NCBI RefSeq assembly: GCF_000296695.1
Contig: NZ_BAFK01000001.1
Span: 1 to 64,000 of the forward strand
DNA length: 64,000 bases
Direction of reading: 5' to 3'
DNA from: Rheinheimera nanhaiensis E407-8
Lineage (GTDB): Bacteria > Pseudomonadota > Gammaproteobacteria > Enterobacterales > Alteromonadaceae
The translations under genes and the position numbers were made by a program. Below, in pieces: positions 57,448 to 64,000 of the stretch; the stretch's first letter is position 1, and each line of letters begins with the position of its first letter. Under the pieces are notes generated by a model. It worked only from the letters and a program-made list of their open reading frames with translations, ran no database searches and was not told the origin of the DNA.

Positions 57448-58860
57448 ATGAGCAACGACATTAAAACCCAAGTAGTGGTGCTGGGCGCAGGCCCTGGCGG
57501 TTACTCTGCAGCCTTCCGTGCAGCAGATTTAGGTTTAGAAGTTACCCTGGTTGAAGCCCGCAGCACCTTAGGTGGCGTGTGCTTAAACGTAGGTTGTATT
57601 CCGTCTAAAGCCTTATTACACGTTGCTAAAGTGATTGACGATGCTAAAGAGATGGCATCACACGGTGTGACCTTTGGTGAGCCGAAAATCGATTTAGACA
57701 AAATCCGTAGCTGGAAAGACAAAGTCGTTGGCCAACTGACCAACGGCCTGGCCGGTATGTCTAAAATGCGTAAAGTAAAAGTGGTTACCGGTTACGGTAA
57801 ATTTACCGGCGCCAACACCTTACAGGTTGGCGACACCAAAATTACCTTTGAACACGCTATTATCGCGGCGGGTTCAGAGCCGGTATCACTGCCGTTTATT
57901 CCAAAAGATGACCCACGCGTTATCGACTCGACCGGTGCACTGGAATTAAAAGACATTCCGGGCGAAATGCTGGTATTAGGTGGCGGTATTATCGGCCTGG
58001 AAATGGGTACCGTGTACCGTGCACTGGGTTCTAAAGTGTCAGTCGTTGAATTTGCTGATCAGTTAGTACCAGCAGCCGATGCTGATATCGTTAAAGCCTA
58101 CACCAAGTACAACAAAGACAACTACAACATTATGTTGTCGACCAAAGTGGTTGGCGTAGAAGCGAAAAAAGACGGTTTGTATGTAACCTTCGAAGGCAAA
58201 AACGCACCGGAAAAAGCGGTACGTTATGACAAGATCTTAGTCGCCGTTGGCCGTAAGCCAAACGGCGCGCTGTTAGATGCGGCCAAAGCCGGTGTTAACG
58301 TAGACGAGCGCGGCTTTATCAATGTTGATAAGCAACTGCGCACCAACGTGCCACACATTTATGCCATCGGTGACGTTATCGGCCAGCCAATGTTAGCGCA
58401 CAAAGCGGTACACGAAGGCCACGTAGCGGCCGAGGTGATCTCTGGCCTGAAGCACTTCTTCGACCCGCGTTGCATTCCATCAGTCGCCTATACCGATCCG
58501 GAAATGGCCTGGGTAGGGGTTACCGAGAAAGAAGCCAAAGAGCAGGGCTTAAAAATTGAAACCGCTACCTTCCCATGGGCAGCGTCTGGCCGTGCTATCG
58601 CTTCAGCCCGTACTGAAGGCTTCACCAAGCTGATTTTCGACAAAGAAACGCACCGTATTCTGGGTGGCGCTATTGTCGGTATCAACGCCGGTGAAATGCT
58701 GGGTGAAATCTGCTTAGCAGTAGAGATGGGTGCCGACGCCGAAGATATCGCGTTAACTATCCACGCTCACCCAACGCTGAACGAGTCTATCGGTTTAGCA
58801 GCAGAGATTTACGAAGGTTCAATCACCGACCTGCCAAACCCGAAAGCGAAGAAGAAGTAA
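57448..58860 (+). CDS. lpdA: Dihydrolipoyl dehydrogenase (E3)
   Basis: 470-residue flavoprotein that reoxidises dihydrolipoamide using NAD+ in pyruvate and 2-oxoglutarate dehydrogenases and the glycine cleavage system. FAD motif GAGPGGYSAAFRAADLG is near 12-28. The redox disulfide is GGVCLNVGCIPSKALLH (Cys-x4-Cys). The NAD motif is VLGGGIIGLEMG near 178. The catalytic His-Glu pair is in HAHPTLNES. Codon choice looks strongly biased, fitting high expression. The ~160-base gap after aceF suggests extra, independent transcription. A terminator follows. Confidence 0.97.
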   Translation: MSNDIKTQVVVLGAGPGGYSAAFRAADLGLEVTLVEARSTLGGVCLNVGCIPSKALLHVAKVIDDAKEMASHGVTFGEPKIDLDKIRSWKDKVVGQLTNGLAGMSKMRKVKVVTGYGKFTGANTLQVGDTKITFEHAIIAAGSEPVSLPFIPKDDPRVIDSTGALELKDIPGEMLVLGGGIIGLEMGTVYRALGSKVSVVEFADQLVPAADADIVKAYTKYNKDNYNIMLSTKVVGVEAKKDGLYVTFEGKNAPEKAVRYDKILVAVGRKPNGALLDAAKAGVNVDERGFINVDKQLRTNVPHIYAIGDVIGQPMLAHKAVHEGHVAAEVISGLKHFFDPRCIPSVAYTDPEMAWVGVTEKEAKEQGLKIETATFPWAASGRAIASARTEGFTKLIFDKETHRILGGAIVGINAGEMLGEICLAVEMGADAEDIALTIHAHPTLNESIGLAAEIYEGSITDLPNPKAKKK

Positions 58861-58885
58861 TTTTTCTGAGTTAAGTGTTTAAGTC

Positions 58886-58916
58886 AAAGGCCGCGAATGC
58901 GGCCTTTGTTGTTTTT
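58886..58916 (+). terminator. Rho-independent terminator after lpdA
   Basis: AAAGGCCGC, GAAT loop, GCGGCCTTT, then GTTGTTTTT. It lies 25 bases after the lpdA stop and ends the PDH operon. Confidence 0.9.
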
Positions 58917-58983
58917 GCATAACAGATATTCCAATCCACTTATCAGCACTAAAGATTCTTCTCAGCCAGTCGAAGTTAAAATG

Positions 58984-59011
58984 TTGTTATATGGTTTATA
59001 AAGTGTAAAAT
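58984..59011 (+). promoter_or_regulatory. Possible promoter of the 59-60.5 kb operon
   Basis: TTGTTA at 58984 and TAAAAT at 59006 are spaced by 16 bases in an AT-rich stretch 32 bases before the next gene start. This is a plausible sigma-70 promoter by eye. Confidence 0.4.
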
Positions 59012-59042
59012 AAAACTCTTTTTGCACATTAAGGGATCTAAT

Positions 59043-59564
59043 ATGGCGACTATTCAACTACTTATAGGTGGTTCTGCCTTAGTACCAACAGTAGGTAACA
59101 GGACGTTAAAAAAATATGAGATTGCAAAGGCGTCGACACAAGACAAAACGGTAACGCTAGACCGGGTGCTGGCCGCTCGTATACGTAATGCGCTGATGCA
59201 TGAAGTAGATTGGCTAGAAACAATGCCGGTGGGTGATTTTCGTAAATTGCTCGCTTTCCAAGGTTTTAATACCGCCAGATTTTCTGATGAGTCAATGGTC
59301 AGGGATCTGAAAACAGAAGCATCTTTATTAAGAGAAATTGCAATACGCTTACTGCGTGACGATGTGATTAAAGCTGAAACGCCAATTATTATTTCTGGAA
59401 ATGTGTCCGGTGCAGTTGGGATGGCTGCAAAGGTTTTAGGCCCAACGGCTGTGGCAAACTTTAGTTCTGTTGGTGTTACGCTGTGGTGGGATTGTAAGTC
59501 AGACTGTCGCATCGAGAGTATCCATGTCACGGATAAAAAGCTGCATAAGGTTATTAAGCCATGA
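59043..59564 (+). CDS. Unrecognised cytoplasmic protein
   Basis: 173 residues from MATIQLLIGGSALVP, with AAGGGAT upstream. A start seven codons earlier is possible. It has no signal peptide. A basic/helical middle (LAARIRNALMHEVDWLETMPVGDFRKLLAFQGF) precedes a hydrophobic Gly/Ala-rich stretch (IIISGNVSGAVGMAAKVLGPTAVANFSSVGVTLWWD) that could insert in membranes, and a C-terminal cysteine pair (WDCKSDC). I recognise no family. It overlaps the next lipoprotein-like gene by four bases, and both precede a Tai4-like immunity gene, so an effector role is conceivable but unproven. Confidence 0.6.
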   Translation: MATIQLLIGGSALVPTVGNRTLKKYEIAKASTQDKTVTLDRVLAARIRNALMHEVDWLETMPVGDFRKLLAFQGFNTARFSDESMVRDLKTEASLLREIAIRLLRDDVIKAETPIIISGNVSGAVGMAAKVLGPTAVANFSSVGVTLWWDCKSDCRIESIHVTDKKLHKVIKP

Positions 59565-60100
59565 AGAGAATACTAGCCGTTGTATTGTTAATTTCAGCCT
59601 GCAGTACATCAGCAACCAATTATCCTTACCTTGGCTGTCAGTGGTTTATTCCTGCAGAGTATAAAAAGATTTCAGATAACGAATACCGTAGACTGCCATC
59701 TGCAAATGAGCCAGAACGCTCATTTAGCTCTGTGATGTTTACCAGCGTTACGCCACAACATCTGGATACTTATGTTGAGCTGGAGAAGCTTGCAGATACC
59801 GAGGTTCTGGTGGTTTCACACCCGGCTACAAGCAATCTAAGTTTTAAATCACTGTTCGTTAATCGCAAAACCAGGCTTGGCAGCACTCTTAAAAGCGATA
59901 CTCTATTAGTATCGAAAGACGGCTTAGCAGTATCAATGCTGGACGTGGCGTCAACGGATAGCTTTCACATGACCAGCGCTTGTGTACCCGCACAGGTAGT
60001 CGAGCAGCATTACGCTGTGCAACAGCAACTGGCACAGGGTATTAAGCCGTTTCTTGAAACTGATCATGGCCTAAACATCTTAGTGCCGGCGCAAAACTGA
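59561..60100 (+). CDS. Putative lipoprotein of unknown function
   Basis: 179 residues. MKRILAVVLLISAC forms a short signal with a lipobox-like ending (I-S-A-C, Cys14). The mature part is polar with two more cysteines (LGCQWF, TSACVP) that could pair. No domain is recognised. Its ATG overlaps the stop of the previous gene (ATGA), so the two are co-translated. An envelope lipoprotein next to an unrecognised protein again suggests an immunity or envelope-stress role by context only. Confidence 0.65.
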   Translation: MKRILAVVLLISACSTSATNYPYLGCQWFIPAEYKKISDNEYRRLPSANEPERSFSSVMFTSVTPQHLDTYVELEKLADTEVLVVSHPATSNLSFKSLFVNRKTRLGSTLKSDTLLVSKDGLAVSMLDVASTDSFHMTSACVPAQVVEQHYAVQQQLAQGIKPFLETDHGLNILVPAQN

Positions 60101-60173
60101 TTTTGATGAGAAAAAGCTCGCCAAGCTGTTATTCCTAAAACGGAATATAAGAGCCGCGCGAAATAAACAGGCT

Positions 60174-60542
60174 TTGGTTATTTTTATCGATTTTTTCATT
60201 TCAAGCGGCGTTATGGCTGAGATGGCATTTAAGCAGCAAAACGAGCTAAAGCTGTTTCAGTACTATGCACAGGCCAGCTGTTTAGCCACCGCCTTTACTG
60301 AGGGTGAAATTTACGACCAGGCAGTAAGTGCGCTAAATGGTTACCGCGAGTTTGGAGCTATGCCGCTGGAAGCCTATGAAGAGTTGAACGAGCCGATACA
60401 GCAATGGTTGAAAAAGGACTATGCCACCCAAGCGGGTAAGCAAAATAACCTGATGAAATGCATTGATTTTGCCGAGTCTGAGGTCTTAACAAAGATCTAT
60501 CAGGGCTCCGCTGCTGAATCGCCGTGTAAAAGTAAAAAGTAA
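60174..60542 (+). CDS. Tai4-like T6SS amidase immunity protein (N-terminus uncertain)
   Basis: About 122 residues if the TTG at 60174 is used. An ATG at 60213 (MAEMAFKQQNELK) would give 109. The core YYAQASCLATAFTEGEIYDQAVSALNGYREFG...LEAYEELNEPIQQWLKK...NLMKCIDFAESEVL resembles Tai4, the periplasmic inhibitor of the Tae4 peptidoglycan amidase, including the M-K-C-I-D block. Tai4 is usually exported. The stretch VIFIDFFISSGVMA could be a poor signal peptide. The open frame runs further upstream without a good start, so the 5' end may be altered. No Tae4 effector is in view. Confidence 0.6.
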   Translation: MVIFIDFFISSGVMAEMAFKQQNELKLFQYYAQASCLATAFTEGEIYDQAVSALNGYREFGAMPLEAYEELNEPIQQWLKKDYATQAGKQNNLMKCIDFAESEVLTKIYQGSAAESPCKSKK

Positions 60543-60563
60543 GTTCTTTTCAAGTAAAACCAT

Positions 60564-60589
60564 CAAAAAGTCGCTTCCACGACTTTTTG
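60564..60589. terminator. Terminator hairpin between the Tai4-like and SIR2-STAND genes
   Basis: CAAAAAGTCG and CGACTTTTTG form a ten-base stem with a CTTCCA loop. T-rich sequence follows on the plus strand, and runs of T also occur on the minus strand, so it may serve both convergent genes. Confidence 0.8.
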
Positions 60590-60617
60590 ATTTTGTTAGG
60601 GGGGGGTAAGTCCTAAT

Positions 60618-62984
60618 TTAATCGTTCTTATTGGATTTTAAAAACTGAAGTATATTATTGAAATGCTGCTTTGACTCTCCAGTAAATGGCATAGATGTAG
60701 AAAGTATGTTCTTCATCAACTTATGAAGATGACCTTTATTTTTTACTGTGTTGTCAAGTAGTGAGTTAACATAGTTTTGGTTGAAATTATATTTGCTTAT
60801 TGATGAGTTATACCAGAATAAGGCTTCTTTTATAAAATCGATATTGGAGTAATTAGTAGTGAAACATAGTTTTCCATACAGGTTAGCTATAGTAAATTCC
60901 GCATTCATTGTTGTTTTATCTCGAGTGCTATCAAAAAAAGCTTTCTTTGCATAGTCAATGGCATTCATTAAGCTTGGTTGGTCTTTTAAAATTCTATCCA
61001 TTGCTTTTGCTCTTTGCAGCCAATAATCTGGGTCATTGCTAAGAATGCTCTCTAAATCACTATATAGACCTATTAATAATTTTCCTGCGCCCTCTCTCCT
61101 GAAGAAAAACTGATTAATTGTATCAAACATGATCACTTTTTTCGCAATTGGATTGAGGTCAATATTTCTGTAAAACTCCGAGATTAGTTCAATAATTATA
61201 TTTTTTGTTTTCTCTGCGCCATTTTTAATAGAAAATCCGTTTATGGCGTTGAATAGCCAGACTTTTGAATTTACCACAATTTTAAACTTAGACTTGTGAT
61301 TTCTCTCTGAACGATCTGTTTCTATTATCTCAAGTAAGGGATTAAACTTTTTTGCTAGAGCTGCGGACTCTGAATTGCCAAACCCAAGATGCCTGCTAAT
61401 GCTTATATAAACTTTATCAAGGACTGCAAGAATTAACAGTAACTTTAGTTCGTTATTTTGAATATCCTCTTTGAAATGTAAAAAATCTGCTCTTATATAT
61501 GGATAGTGAATCGATGAGTTGTACGTGTTGTTGAGTATTGTTTGTTTTCTTTTCCATTCAATAATCCCTAGAAGCGATAAGTTTCTATTTATATCTGAGG
61601 TTTCATGATCATCCAAGCTGTTTCGCAATTCAAAAAAATTATCTTCGAATTCTGGAGTCAAAAAAACATTTGATACATCAACTTCTGTTGGGTTGCAAGC
61701 GATTAATATTGAAACATTGTTATTCTTCAGTGCCTTAATTTCCTTGCGGAGAGTGTAGGCTTCTTCGTATGACACAACATTAGAGTCAATTAAAACAACA
61801 GAGTTAGATAGTCTGGTTAATTTATCTATGTCCTCAGAGCTGATTGATGAGTCTGAAGGGATATAGTAAACATTCCTATCTTTCACATGAATGGTTATTG
61901 TCTTTAAAAGTAAAGATTTTCCTGAGAATCTTCTCCCCTTAATTATTGTTACATTGTTTTTATTTATGCTATTTATTACATCCGGTGTGATGCTTCTTTT
62001 TGAAATGTAGTATGGTACGCCAAACCTTATTAGTTCACTGTTGTTGTCAAAGTTTTGCAGTAGAAAGTTTATGTTTTTGTTTTTATCTTTTTCAACTGTA
62101 AATATGTTTGATGATTTAAAGTTTTCAAAATCTATTTTATCGTCAAAATCTTCGCTATTAAACGCGGTGTTTACTATTTTGTATATTTCATCAAAGTCGT
62201 TTACAATAATCACGGTATTTATATTGTAATCTTCAAGAGAATCTAGTGTTATCGTGTCAGGAGTTTGTCTAGTGAAGAATATTCTTTTTGAACTGACGCT
62301 TTTATCTTCCTTTGCGCCAGATACTGCATGGATTATATCTATTTCCCGATCAAGGCTGCAGCCTATATAAATAATGTTGCTTTCAGATATGTCGTTTTTT
62401 AAAGCGTTAAGTATAGATTCATTTTTTGTTAGGCTTCTAATGTACTGCGCATCGGAAAATATTAAAGAGTCAGATTCTGAGTATGTTATTTCTTCAGTTG
62501 CGCATCCATGTATTTTATAAAGTAAATGGTGGTCTCTAATTCTGTGCTGTAGTTTCTTGTATGGTAATACTTTTTTAATTTTCTTATTTTCTCGCTCTAT
62601 AGCATCATCTATGTTTAACGTGTAGATGTACTTCCAATCATTATTGATAAAATCTTTTTTTAGTTTATCTAATTTTACTTCAGTGAAGTATGAGGTTAGA
62701 TCCTGTATTATTAGTTCTTTTTTAGAGTGTTTGAGATATGACTTTGAAACTTTTTTTAGATCGGAATCTTTCAGGGCTGCTATTAGGTTTTCGTCAGCAC
62801 TACTCTTAATAAGGGTTCTAATCATTATCTCTTTGAGCTGTTTTCCATCAGGAACTTTTGCGTTTTTCGCTTCACAGTTTCTTGTGAAACCAGATCCTAA
62901 AATAGGAATTAATCCAGAGCTTAAAATGCAACTTTTTATTATTTCGACTGATTTATTAAATTCTTTATCTATTATGTTTATCAC
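60618..62984 (-). CDS. SIR2-STAND protein, likely anti-phage NADase
   Basis: 788 residues. A SIR2-like domain covers about 15-275: the NAD-binding loop is PILGSGFTRNC (residues 27-37), conserved YTLNIDDAIE holds Asn124 and Asp126, the likely catalytic His is 159 (KIHGCA), and IGCSLDREID lies near 208. A P-loop NTPase follows, with Walker A GRRFSGKS (350-357) and Walker B-like SVVLID (395-400), then an alpha-helical, TPR-like sensor region to the end. This is the SIR2-STAND layout of AVAST type 5 and related abortive-infection proteins, which destroy NAD+ after sensing a phage protein. The gene is far more AT-rich than its surroundings, monocistronic and probably horizontally acquired. Confidence 0.82.
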   Translation of the reverse strand: MINIIDKEFNKSVEIIKSCILSSGLIPILGSGFTRNCEAKNAKVPDGKQLKEIMIRTLIKSSADENLIAALKDSDLKKVSKSYLKHSKKELIIQDLTSYFTEVKLDKLKKDFINNDWKYIYTLNIDDAIERENKKIKKVLPYKKLQHRIRDHHLLYKIHGCATEEITYSESDSLIFSDAQYIRSLTKNESILNALKNDISESNIIYIGCSLDREIDIIHAVSGAKEDKSVSSKRIFFTRQTPDTITLDSLEDYNINTVIIVNDFDEIYKIVNTAFNSEDFDDKIDFENFKSSNIFTVEKDKNKNINFLLQNFDNNSELIRFGVPYYISKRSITPDVINSINKNNVTIIKGRRFSGKSLLLKTITIHVKDRNVYYIPSDSSISSEDIDKLTRLSNSVVLIDSNVVSYEEAYTLRKEIKALKNNNVSILIACNPTEVDVSNVFLTPEFEDNFFELRNSLDDHETSDINRNLSLLGIIEWKRKQTILNNTYNSSIHYPYIRADFLHFKEDIQNNELKLLLILAVLDKVYISISRHLGFGNSESAALAKKFNPLLEIIETDRSERNHKSKFKIVVNSKVWLFNAINGFSIKNGAEKTKNIIIELISEFYRNIDLNPIAKKVIMFDTINQFFFRREGAGKLLIGLYSDLESILSNDPDYWLQRAKAMDRILKDQPSLMNAIDYAKKAFFDSTRDKTTMNAEFTIANLYGKLCFTTNYSNIDFIKEALFWYNSSISKYNFNQNYVNSLLDNTVKNKGHLHKLMKNILSTSMPFTGESKQHFNNILQFLKSNKND

Positions 62985-63214
62985 TTATTGCCTCTTAGTC
63001 ATTAAATGGCTTATATTTTTGAATCGATAAGTATAAATACGAAATGCATTTCTTTACTGTCGTTGAGTTTTAATTATCGTGAAGATTGTTAACTAGATTA
63101 CTTAAAATCGTATACAGGTCAAGTAATTAGTTGTCTAGTTTAAGTCTTTCGAAATCCTTATTGCCGTCGGTACCTTGTCTTTCTTGAGTATCGTTTTTAA
63201 TATTAGGACGTTTT
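62985..63214. other. Intergenic region between SIR2-STAND and NERD genes
   Basis: The left half (to about 63130) shares the low GC of the SIR2-STAND gene and should hold its promoter. The right half returns to normal composition and leads into the plus-strand NERD gene. No att-like repeat or tRNA remnant was found by eye. Confidence 0.4.
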
Positions 63215-64000
63215 ATGCGCTGGAAGCGTTTTACTTTACCGCTATTACTGCTTTTCTCCCCGCTAGCCTTGAGCCAGAAGCAATATACCGAAGCGGCGTG
63301 TTTGCTGCTGCAGCACCAAATAGTGCAATTTGCTGCTCAGCCAAATAGCCATAACTACCTAAGCGCTAAGCGTGAAGTGGATAACCACTGCCTAAACCCG
63401 ATACCGGCACCGGTAAAAGATGTGGTGCTAACTAATATTCCTGCCAAACCCGTAACCGTTAGCAGCGTTAAAAACACCGTCACCACCAAGCCGGTTAACA
63501 CTGCAACTGCCACTAAAGCCACAACACCGCCGCCGGTTAAGCCTGCGCCCGCTGCAGCACCAAAACCAGCTGATGTACTAAAGGGCTATTTTGCCCCGGT
63601 AGCAGCACTTTTTGGTGCCATATTGGCACTGCTTGGCGGTATGCTGGCAATGCTGTTGTTGCTAGTTATTGTTGTCGTCTTGATAGGATTTATTGCCGCC
63701 CGCTACGGCGCACGTATTAAAGGTGCTATGGAGGAGCGGGCGCTGCATAAAGTGCTGGTGAAAGAGCTGCCGGCCAGTTATCAGCATTACCGTAACTTGG
63801 TCATACCCACTGCCAAAGGCGATTTTACCGAGGTAGACCACCTGGTGCTTAGCCCCTTTGGTATTTTTGTCATTGAAGTAAAAAACTACCGCGGCTGGAT
63901 TTTTGGTGGCGAAAAGCAGCCGCAGTGGACGCTACAGCGCTTTCGCAGCAAGCACCCGTTTATGAACCCGCTGCACCAAAACTACAAACATACGCAGGCG
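63215..64000 (+). CDS. Membrane-anchored NERD-domain protein, 3' end outside window
   Basis: At least 262 residues, open to the window end. Signal peptide MRWKRFTLPLLLLFSPLALS (about 1-20). A Pro/Ala/Thr-rich periplasmic stretch covers about 70-125, a strong membrane helix about 133-168, then a cytoplasmic nuclease-related (NERD) domain. NERD motifs are FTEVDHLVLSPFGIFVIEVKNYRG, with the Asp and the E-x-K typical of restriction-endonuclease-like folds. It has been proposed to process nucleic acid, but activity is rarely shown. It lies next to the defence-like SIR2 gene and is divergent from it. Confidence 0.82.
   Translation, partial: MRWKRFTLPLLLLFSPLALSQKQYTEAACLLLQHQIVQFAAQPNSHNYLSAKREVDNHCLNPIPAPVKDVVLTNIPAKPVTVSSVKNTVTTKPVNTATATKATTPPPVKPAPAAAPKPADVLKGYFAPVAALFGAILALLGGMLAMLLLLVIVVVLIGFIAARYGARIKGAMEERALHKVLVKELPASYQHYRNLVIPTAKGDFTEVDHLVLSPFGIFVIEVKNYRGWIFGGEKQPQWTLQRFRSKHPFMNPLHQNYKHTQA

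Follow-up and report, generated by a model that had tools for sequence, protein, structure and literature searches.

A divergent, probably anti-phage Avs5 gene of Rheinheimera nanhaiensis at a variable site beside lpdA

Near the right-hand end of a 64,000-nucleotide stretch of the Rheinheimera nanhaiensis E407-8 genome (contig NZ_BAFK01000001.1, positions 1 to 64,000; here called the window), a single AT-rich gene raises the question of whether it encodes an anti-phage protein of a known family and how it came to occupy its present position. A preliminary description, made from the sequence alone, proposed a solitary SIR2-STAND defense gene of AVAST type 5 with a sensor half of no recognizable kind. 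The present analysis indicates that the gene very probably encodes an anti-phage STAND protein that acts alone, a divergent member of the Avs5 (AVAST type 5) family, and was acquired horizontally as a cassette. The open reading frame (ORF) is a single frame of 788 codons with a GTG start codon and, as read from the sequence, AGAGG, resembling a ribosome-binding site, six bases upstream of it; GSGFT (residues 30–34), Asn124, Asp126, His159 and GRRFSGKS (residues 350–357) all lie where they had been reported. The base composition is also, as described, far below that of the neighbors: the guanine-plus-cytosine (GC) fraction of the gene is 0.32, that of the rest of the window is higher by 0.19, and values over positions 1–60000, taken in 1-kb steps, range from 0.41 to 0.57.

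The protein belongs to the Avs5 family along its full length. The PADLOC Avs5 model PDLC02170 matches residues 17–787 (E 7.7e-78) and the NCBIfam model NF041814 matches residues 16–781 (E 3.1e-89); at E up to 1, the PADLOC matches consist of Avs5 models and a weak match to mad8. The scores of two Pfam domains, SIR2_2 (residues 120–256, 46.5 bits, cut-off 24.5) and nSTAND_NTPase5 (residues 326–438, 40.8 bits, cut-off 34), exceed the curated cut-offs and are therefore beyond chance. AAA_14 and nSTAND3, the latter being the nucleoside triphosphatase (NTPase) model named for Avs5 in PMC12931631, score under their own Pfam cut-offs (15.3 versus 27.2 bits for nSTAND3). The window protein is the sole SIR2_2 match in its own genome at E ≤ 0.001, and a search of the same genome with nSTAND3 was uninformative, as 11 further places match and matches likewise occur in all 14 control genomes. 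The catalytic and nucleotide-binding residues are intact, and the Walker B-like strand of the NTPase core ends in a single acidic residue, Asp400. A SIR2 fold is predicted in the structural model, the C-terminal half of which consists mostly of helices, and fold comparison matches the model to chains from a filament whose structure is solved. Thus the Avs5 models and the profile and structure comparisons agree with the proposed assignment to AVAST type 5.

It should be noted that the C-terminal half, the presumed sensor, does not bear out the view that it is unrecognizable. Residues 481–788 are homologous to the C terminus of the solved Avs5 of PDB entry 9nah, which they match when used alone (blastp 3e-11), and each of the 25 relatives fetched at full length is matched as well (blastp against a 31-row database, weakest E 0.001). 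An hhalign comparison of this region, in which the window protein and a Chlorobaculum relative were aligned with seven members of the 9nah branch, gave 99.8% probability over 290 columns. The region carries the signature residues Tyr641, Trp655, Gln657, and Lys660, and the spacing of the first three equals that of Tyr661, Trp675, and Gln677 of PaAvs5-1, of which the tyrosine and tryptophan are described as conserved and the glutamine as invariant in PMC12931631. Over 26 aligned rows, comprising 25 relatives and the window protein, the residue found here is shared at Gln657 in 26, at Tyr641 in 25, and at Trp655 in 16. The mean majority fraction is highest in the SIR2 domain (0.45) and residues 601–665 (0.43) and lowest in the linker (residues 266–325, 0.27) and then residues 666–788 (0.29), and the low conservation of the latter is consistent with a fast-changing sensor end. 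To judge from these alignments, the sensor half is of the known Avs5 kind, and a new trigger specificity is possible because the lineage of the window protein is divergent.

The relatives were fetched with an alignment query, by which 32 of 142 pattern matches were confirmed in the genome_contigs collection, with full-length ORFs (762–874 residues) at 21 loci, and 5 of 202 in viral_contigs; two of the viral loci (L145 and L146) are apparently the same match on two contigs, and one was kept. A single-protein query confirmed none of 128 and 40 pattern matches, respectively, in these collections. No match to the window protein was found in the phage collection at 1e-5, and three records match it in the plasmid collection; a relative on an Enterococcus plasmid (L043:5977-8541) is broken into two ORFs. 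Hosts of the relatives belong to the Chlorobiota, Pseudomonadota, Bacillota, Bacteroidota, and Spirochaetota. The closest relative found, encoded by a metagenome-assembled genome of Chlorobaculum and from a phylum other than that of the Pseudomonadota members of the tree, pairs with the window protein with support of 96/96. The gene is lower in GC than its flanks in all 25 relatives (median −0.18; −0.19 for the window gene), 23 of 25 have no same-strand ORF of at least 90 residues within 60 bp (two have one), and no neighbor within 4 kb recurs at more than two loci. The window gene itself has no adjacent same-strand neighbor, the Tai4-like ORF on its left being convergent and the NERD gene on its right divergent, which led to rejection of a two-gene Avs system. 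The reported absence of companion genes is therefore correct, but solitude is not a special feature of this gene; since the relatives share both low GC and the lack of companions, “AT-rich and solitary” describes the Avs5 family. Two viral contigs with Avs5 relatives (L148 and L149) have in common a nearby ORF that by eye resembles a phage tail protein, and because of this shared ORF Avs5 may travel on prophages.

Several observations weigh against the assignment of the window protein as a functional Avs5. Even the closest relative found is only 40% identical in its best segment and 37% identical over the aligned length, and the Chlorobaculum row was flagged by the tree tool for unusual amino acid make-up. 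The NF041814 score (299.8 bits) is far under the cut-off of 1000, so that equal function with the NF041814 reference is not established; this cut-off serves equivalog naming as opposed to family membership, and the model matches all 26 aligned rows at E ≤ 0.001. The fetch patterns contained TxN and HG, which in part dictated the invariance of these motifs among the relatives and left NG-type Avs5 almost out of reach. The Walker A lysine, present in the window protein, is found in 23 of the 26 rows and is thus variable in the family. Finally, superposition of the model on PDB entry 9nc9 gives a root mean square deviation of 23.8 Å and the predicted template modeling score is 0.58, making the placement of the domains uncertain.

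These observations bear on three other readings of the gene. An identity of about 28% to the solved Avs5 and the low NCBIfam score would suit a SIR2-STAND protein outside Avs5, with a new kind of sensor and its own trigger class, but the C-terminal half alone aligns with 9nah and has the Tyr/Trp/Gln signature in common with Avs5, so that this reading is, on sequence and model, mostly refuted and in our view very improbable. What such another subtype looks like is illustrated by the SIR2-STAND protein encoded at the same site in another genome of the genus (G002), which lacks a match to an Avs5 model in PADLOC at E up to 0.01 and matches the C-terminal half of the window protein at chance level (E 3.3). 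That the gene is decayed or silent and without present function is suggested by its restriction to one genome within the genus, the GTG start, and the number of promoter-like sites in positions 60000–63400, which is not above chance (10 versus 12.0 expected in a pattern scan); the full-length ORF, the intact catalytic, Walker, and hinge (Tyr/Trp/Gln) residues, and the AGAGG ahead of the start argue in the opposite direction, and decay is considered unlikely. An antisense artifact was rejected, as the + strand ORFs of at least 60 residues across the gene are of only 62 and 134 residues.

The third reading concerns what the protein would sense. In PMC12931631, PaAvs5 proteins from three clades, with 18–21% identity, all respond to an early jumbo-phage protein, JADA, and because these clades are so divergent, JADA specificity may be ancestral to Avs5. 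The window protein might then be an anti-jumbo-phage system, a possibility that we hold tentatively, with the balance tilted against it: some Avs5 also block unrelated phages, EcAvs5 is reported to be T2-specific, and few parts of the family are less conserved than the last 123 residues (666–788). Returning to the assignment as a divergent Avs5, the window protein represents a branch distinct from the Avs5 proteins studied to date in enterobacteria and Pseudomonas, and its apparently intact effector and diverged sensor end make it useful for asking whether JADA sensing is ancestral.

The preliminary description had named lack of a predicted SIR2 fold, or a gene universal in the genus, as outcomes that would speak against it. 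The fold is predicted, as noted above, and the gene has a patchy distribution: among the 31 genomes searched in the genus, and likewise among the 196 searched in the family, only its own has a match. No long match to NF041814 was found beyond this genome among 394 genomes of the order and 369 of the class, samples drawn evenly from larger groups, so that a rare Avs5 may escape; the other matches, in nine order and four class genomes, cover SIR2 or P-loop parts only. Horizontal acquisition is the simplest reading of the distribution, and arrival of the gene as a single AT-rich cassette forms part of the explanation that we regard as very probable.

The surroundings of the gene (Table 1) vary within the genus. 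Blastn similarity to the corresponding region of genome G012, which has the same three left neighbors, ends at about 60539, and similarity on the right starts at 63206, the same base in G012, G014, G015, G016, G021, G024, and G026, 9 bases ahead of the NERD start codon. A clean insertion into an empty site was rejected, as the corresponding place in G012 is occupied by two different small genes together with additional DNA, and the site is therefore one of replacement. We take the gene on the left, from its sequence, to be a dihydrolipoamide dehydrogenase gene (lpdA); the NERD gene is matched in 26 of 31 genus genomes. Several genomes carry multiple NERD-domain genes (among them the one at L049 14029-14937) separated by a few kilobases, and such copies may act as recombination anchors. 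Positions 59022–60542 hold three small + strand ORFs, of which one is Tai4-like and the other two exceed no Pfam cut-off. Between 2 and 7 of 30 genomes carry relatives of these ORFs at the site, the cluster of the Tai4-like ORF being present in seven; the Tai4-like ORF is broken in G015. These ORFs are possibly orphan immunity genes. No tRNA gene was found in the window, no integrase among its five Pfam-scanned ORFs or among the site ORFs scanned in the relatives, and no Rfam family match across 58800–64000, so that a structured RNA near the gene was rejected. The terminator-like hairpins in 60000–63400 are numerically weak (3 versus 2.3 expected, the one listed in Table 1 being counted on each strand).

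Table 1. Coordinates and supporting matches for the window gene, its surroundings, and the genes at the same site in other genomes of the genus (G000 is the genome of the window; numbers after PADLOC are E values)
Feature	Location	Strand	Basis or remark
avs5-like gene (SIR2, nSTAND NTPase, helical C terminus)	60618..62984	-	788 aa
SIR2 domain, residues ~23-265	62190..62918	-	GSGFT 30-34, TLNID 122-126, HG 159-160, E214
STAND P-loop NTPase core, residues ~326-480	61545..62009	-	nSTAND_NTPase5 on 326-438; alignment columns
Helical C-terminal half, presumed sensor, residues 481-788	60621..61544	-	homology to 9nah C terminus; helical model
Exchanged AT-rich segment, approximate extent	60540..63205		blastn limits versus relatives
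Symmetric terminator-like hairpin between converging tai4-like and avs5 genes	60562..60591		pattern scan
lpdA-like gene, left flank	57448..58860	+	31/31 genus genomes; each relative's best copy 92-98% identical
Tai4-like ORF (type VI amidase immunity family)	60174..60542	+	Pfam Tai4 34.3 bits, cut-off 27.1
NERD-domain gene, right flank, extends beyond window end	63215..64000	+	Pfam NERD 85.6 bits
G000, Avs5			PADLOC 7.7e-78
G002, SIR2-STAND	L105:1516-3822	-	PADLOC ThsA model 4.2e-11
G003, dGTPase			PADLOC 6.4e-70
G007, Drt3a + Drt3b	L058:9902-13126	+	PADLOC 1.2e-122, 1.2e-208
G015, KAP NTPase, weak	L051:12542-14209		Pfam 21.4 bits, cut-off 20; PADLOC weak, 0.0018
G016, NACHT-NCH1 protein	L065:9861-12140		Pfam; PADLOC weak, 4.6e-6
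G021, PDC-M29A			PADLOC 7e-130
G024, NsnB			PADLOC 5.6e-47
G026, Helicase			PADLOC 3.8e-140

The region downstream of lpdA was compared in 30 of the 31 genomes, G004 being excluded with lpdA 435 bp from a contig end; four of the 30 (G005, G008, G010, and G017) reach a contig end within about 2.1 kb, leaving 26 usable genomes, among which the genes after lpdA vary. Large AT-rich genes here (GC 0.31–0.37) each occur in one genome, except for a dGTPase gene in two, and in all 10 cases singled out (G000, G002, G003, G007, G010, G015, G016, G021, G024, and G026) the cassette is on the strand opposite to lpdA. PADLOC matches of 1e-10 or better were found at the site in seven of the 26 genomes, plus the dGTPase at the contig end of G010 (8e-14); the ten site proteins scanned had been picked as large and AT-rich, a selection that favors matches. 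In G007, the reverse-transcriptase pair (DRT type 3) is adjoined by a 211-residue ORF. It thus appears that the lpdA-NERD interval serves as a defense-gene exchange site in the genus, on the basis of 7 to 10 genomes and rough controls, and we regard it as about an even chance that anti-phage systems are exchanged there, as single cassettes, across the genus. Against a hotspot stands the fact that no large AT-rich cassette of this kind was seen in the other 17 of the 26 genomes. The lpdA-side genes tested in G006, G011, G013, G014, G022, G025, and G027 gave no PADLOC match at 0.001, and in G030 just a small gene pair is present, within 932 bp. Among ten further ORFs (143–982 residues; nine near lpdA and one past NERD) the only match was the G010 dGTPase, and ten control genes (274–1046 residues) from the same regions, at least 1 kb downstream of lpdA, gave one weak match (1.4e-5); this control set is rough because it is not GC-matched and one member is part of a cluster that three genomes share. 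Elsewhere in the family, in 20 regions representing other genera, the ORFs that come first after lpdA, at most six per region, look ordinary by eye. Exchange may proceed without a resident integrase, through recombination in the conserved flanks, and if the interval is such a site, two SIR2-STAND subtypes, the window Avs5 and that of G002, would have entered it in different species. A literature search found no published description of an lpdA-NERD exchange site, which is not proof of its being undescribed, and the site is a more original observation than the Avs5 gene. If the exchange site is real, the KAP-type ATPase of G015 and the NACHT protein of G016 are good candidates for unlisted defense systems, and a fixed spot beside a housekeeping gene, with DRT3, dGTPase, helicase, and NTPase cassettes, permits a position-based hunt for defense genes.

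The probable action of the protein may be considered by analogy with characterized Avs5 proteins. According to PMC12931631, PaAvs5-1 hydrolyzes nicotinamide adenine dinucleotide (NAD+) upon infection and requires Asn110, Asp112, Glu202, Walker A, the C-terminal helices, and a Walker B glutamate, the replacement of which by alanine abolishes protection but by glutamine does not. The probable counterparts here, assigned by motif and spacing as opposed to alignment, are Asn124, Asp126, Glu214, GRRFSGKS, and Asp400. Avs5 forms filaments of homodimeric blocks, and activity appears to need filaments (PMC12700824). By analogy, the helical C-terminal half of the window protein would keep it inactive in the uninfected cell; binding of a phage protein made during infection to this half would permit the nucleotide-bound NTPase core to assemble protomers into a filament, which would align the N-terminal SIR2 domains for hydrolysis of NAD+ through Asn124 and His159, and the loss of NAD+ would halt phage development.

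Comparison with known SIR2-containing systems places the window protein closest to Avs5. The regions of ThsA (Thoeris) and DSR2 that superimpose well lie mainly in the SIR2 domain, with about 250 residues at 3–4 Å, and no ThsA or DSR2 model matched the window protein in PADLOC at E up to 1. The G002 protein (768 residues, GC 0.35) has the same site and orientation, a similar length and AT-richness, and SIR2_2 plus nSTAND_NTPase5/nSTAND3 domains, but its best match to the window protein falls within the SIR2 part and reaches 25% identity over 197 columns; it has no Avs5 model match in PADLOC at E up to 0.01 and is unmatched in the remaining 30 genomes of the genus. EfAvs5 (PDB 9jap) and PaAvs5-1, -2, and -3 (PMC12931631) have the same SIR2-NTPase-helical order as the window protein; EfAvs5 is matched by profile (8.7e-19) but absent from a single-sequence search at E up to 10, and in PaAvs5-1, according to that paper, the HG motif is replaced by NG and Walker A reads GPAGSGKT. 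The Avs5 of PDB entries 9nah and 9nc9 (“AVAST5 filament”) and NF041814 are homologous to the window protein over the full length, and the solved protein shares with it the Walker A sequence GRRFSGKS, an HG-type SIR2 site, DSN past the Walker B-like strand, and the YWLQRAK motif, although at about 28% identity the window protein lies on a separate branch with the Chlorobaculum protein.
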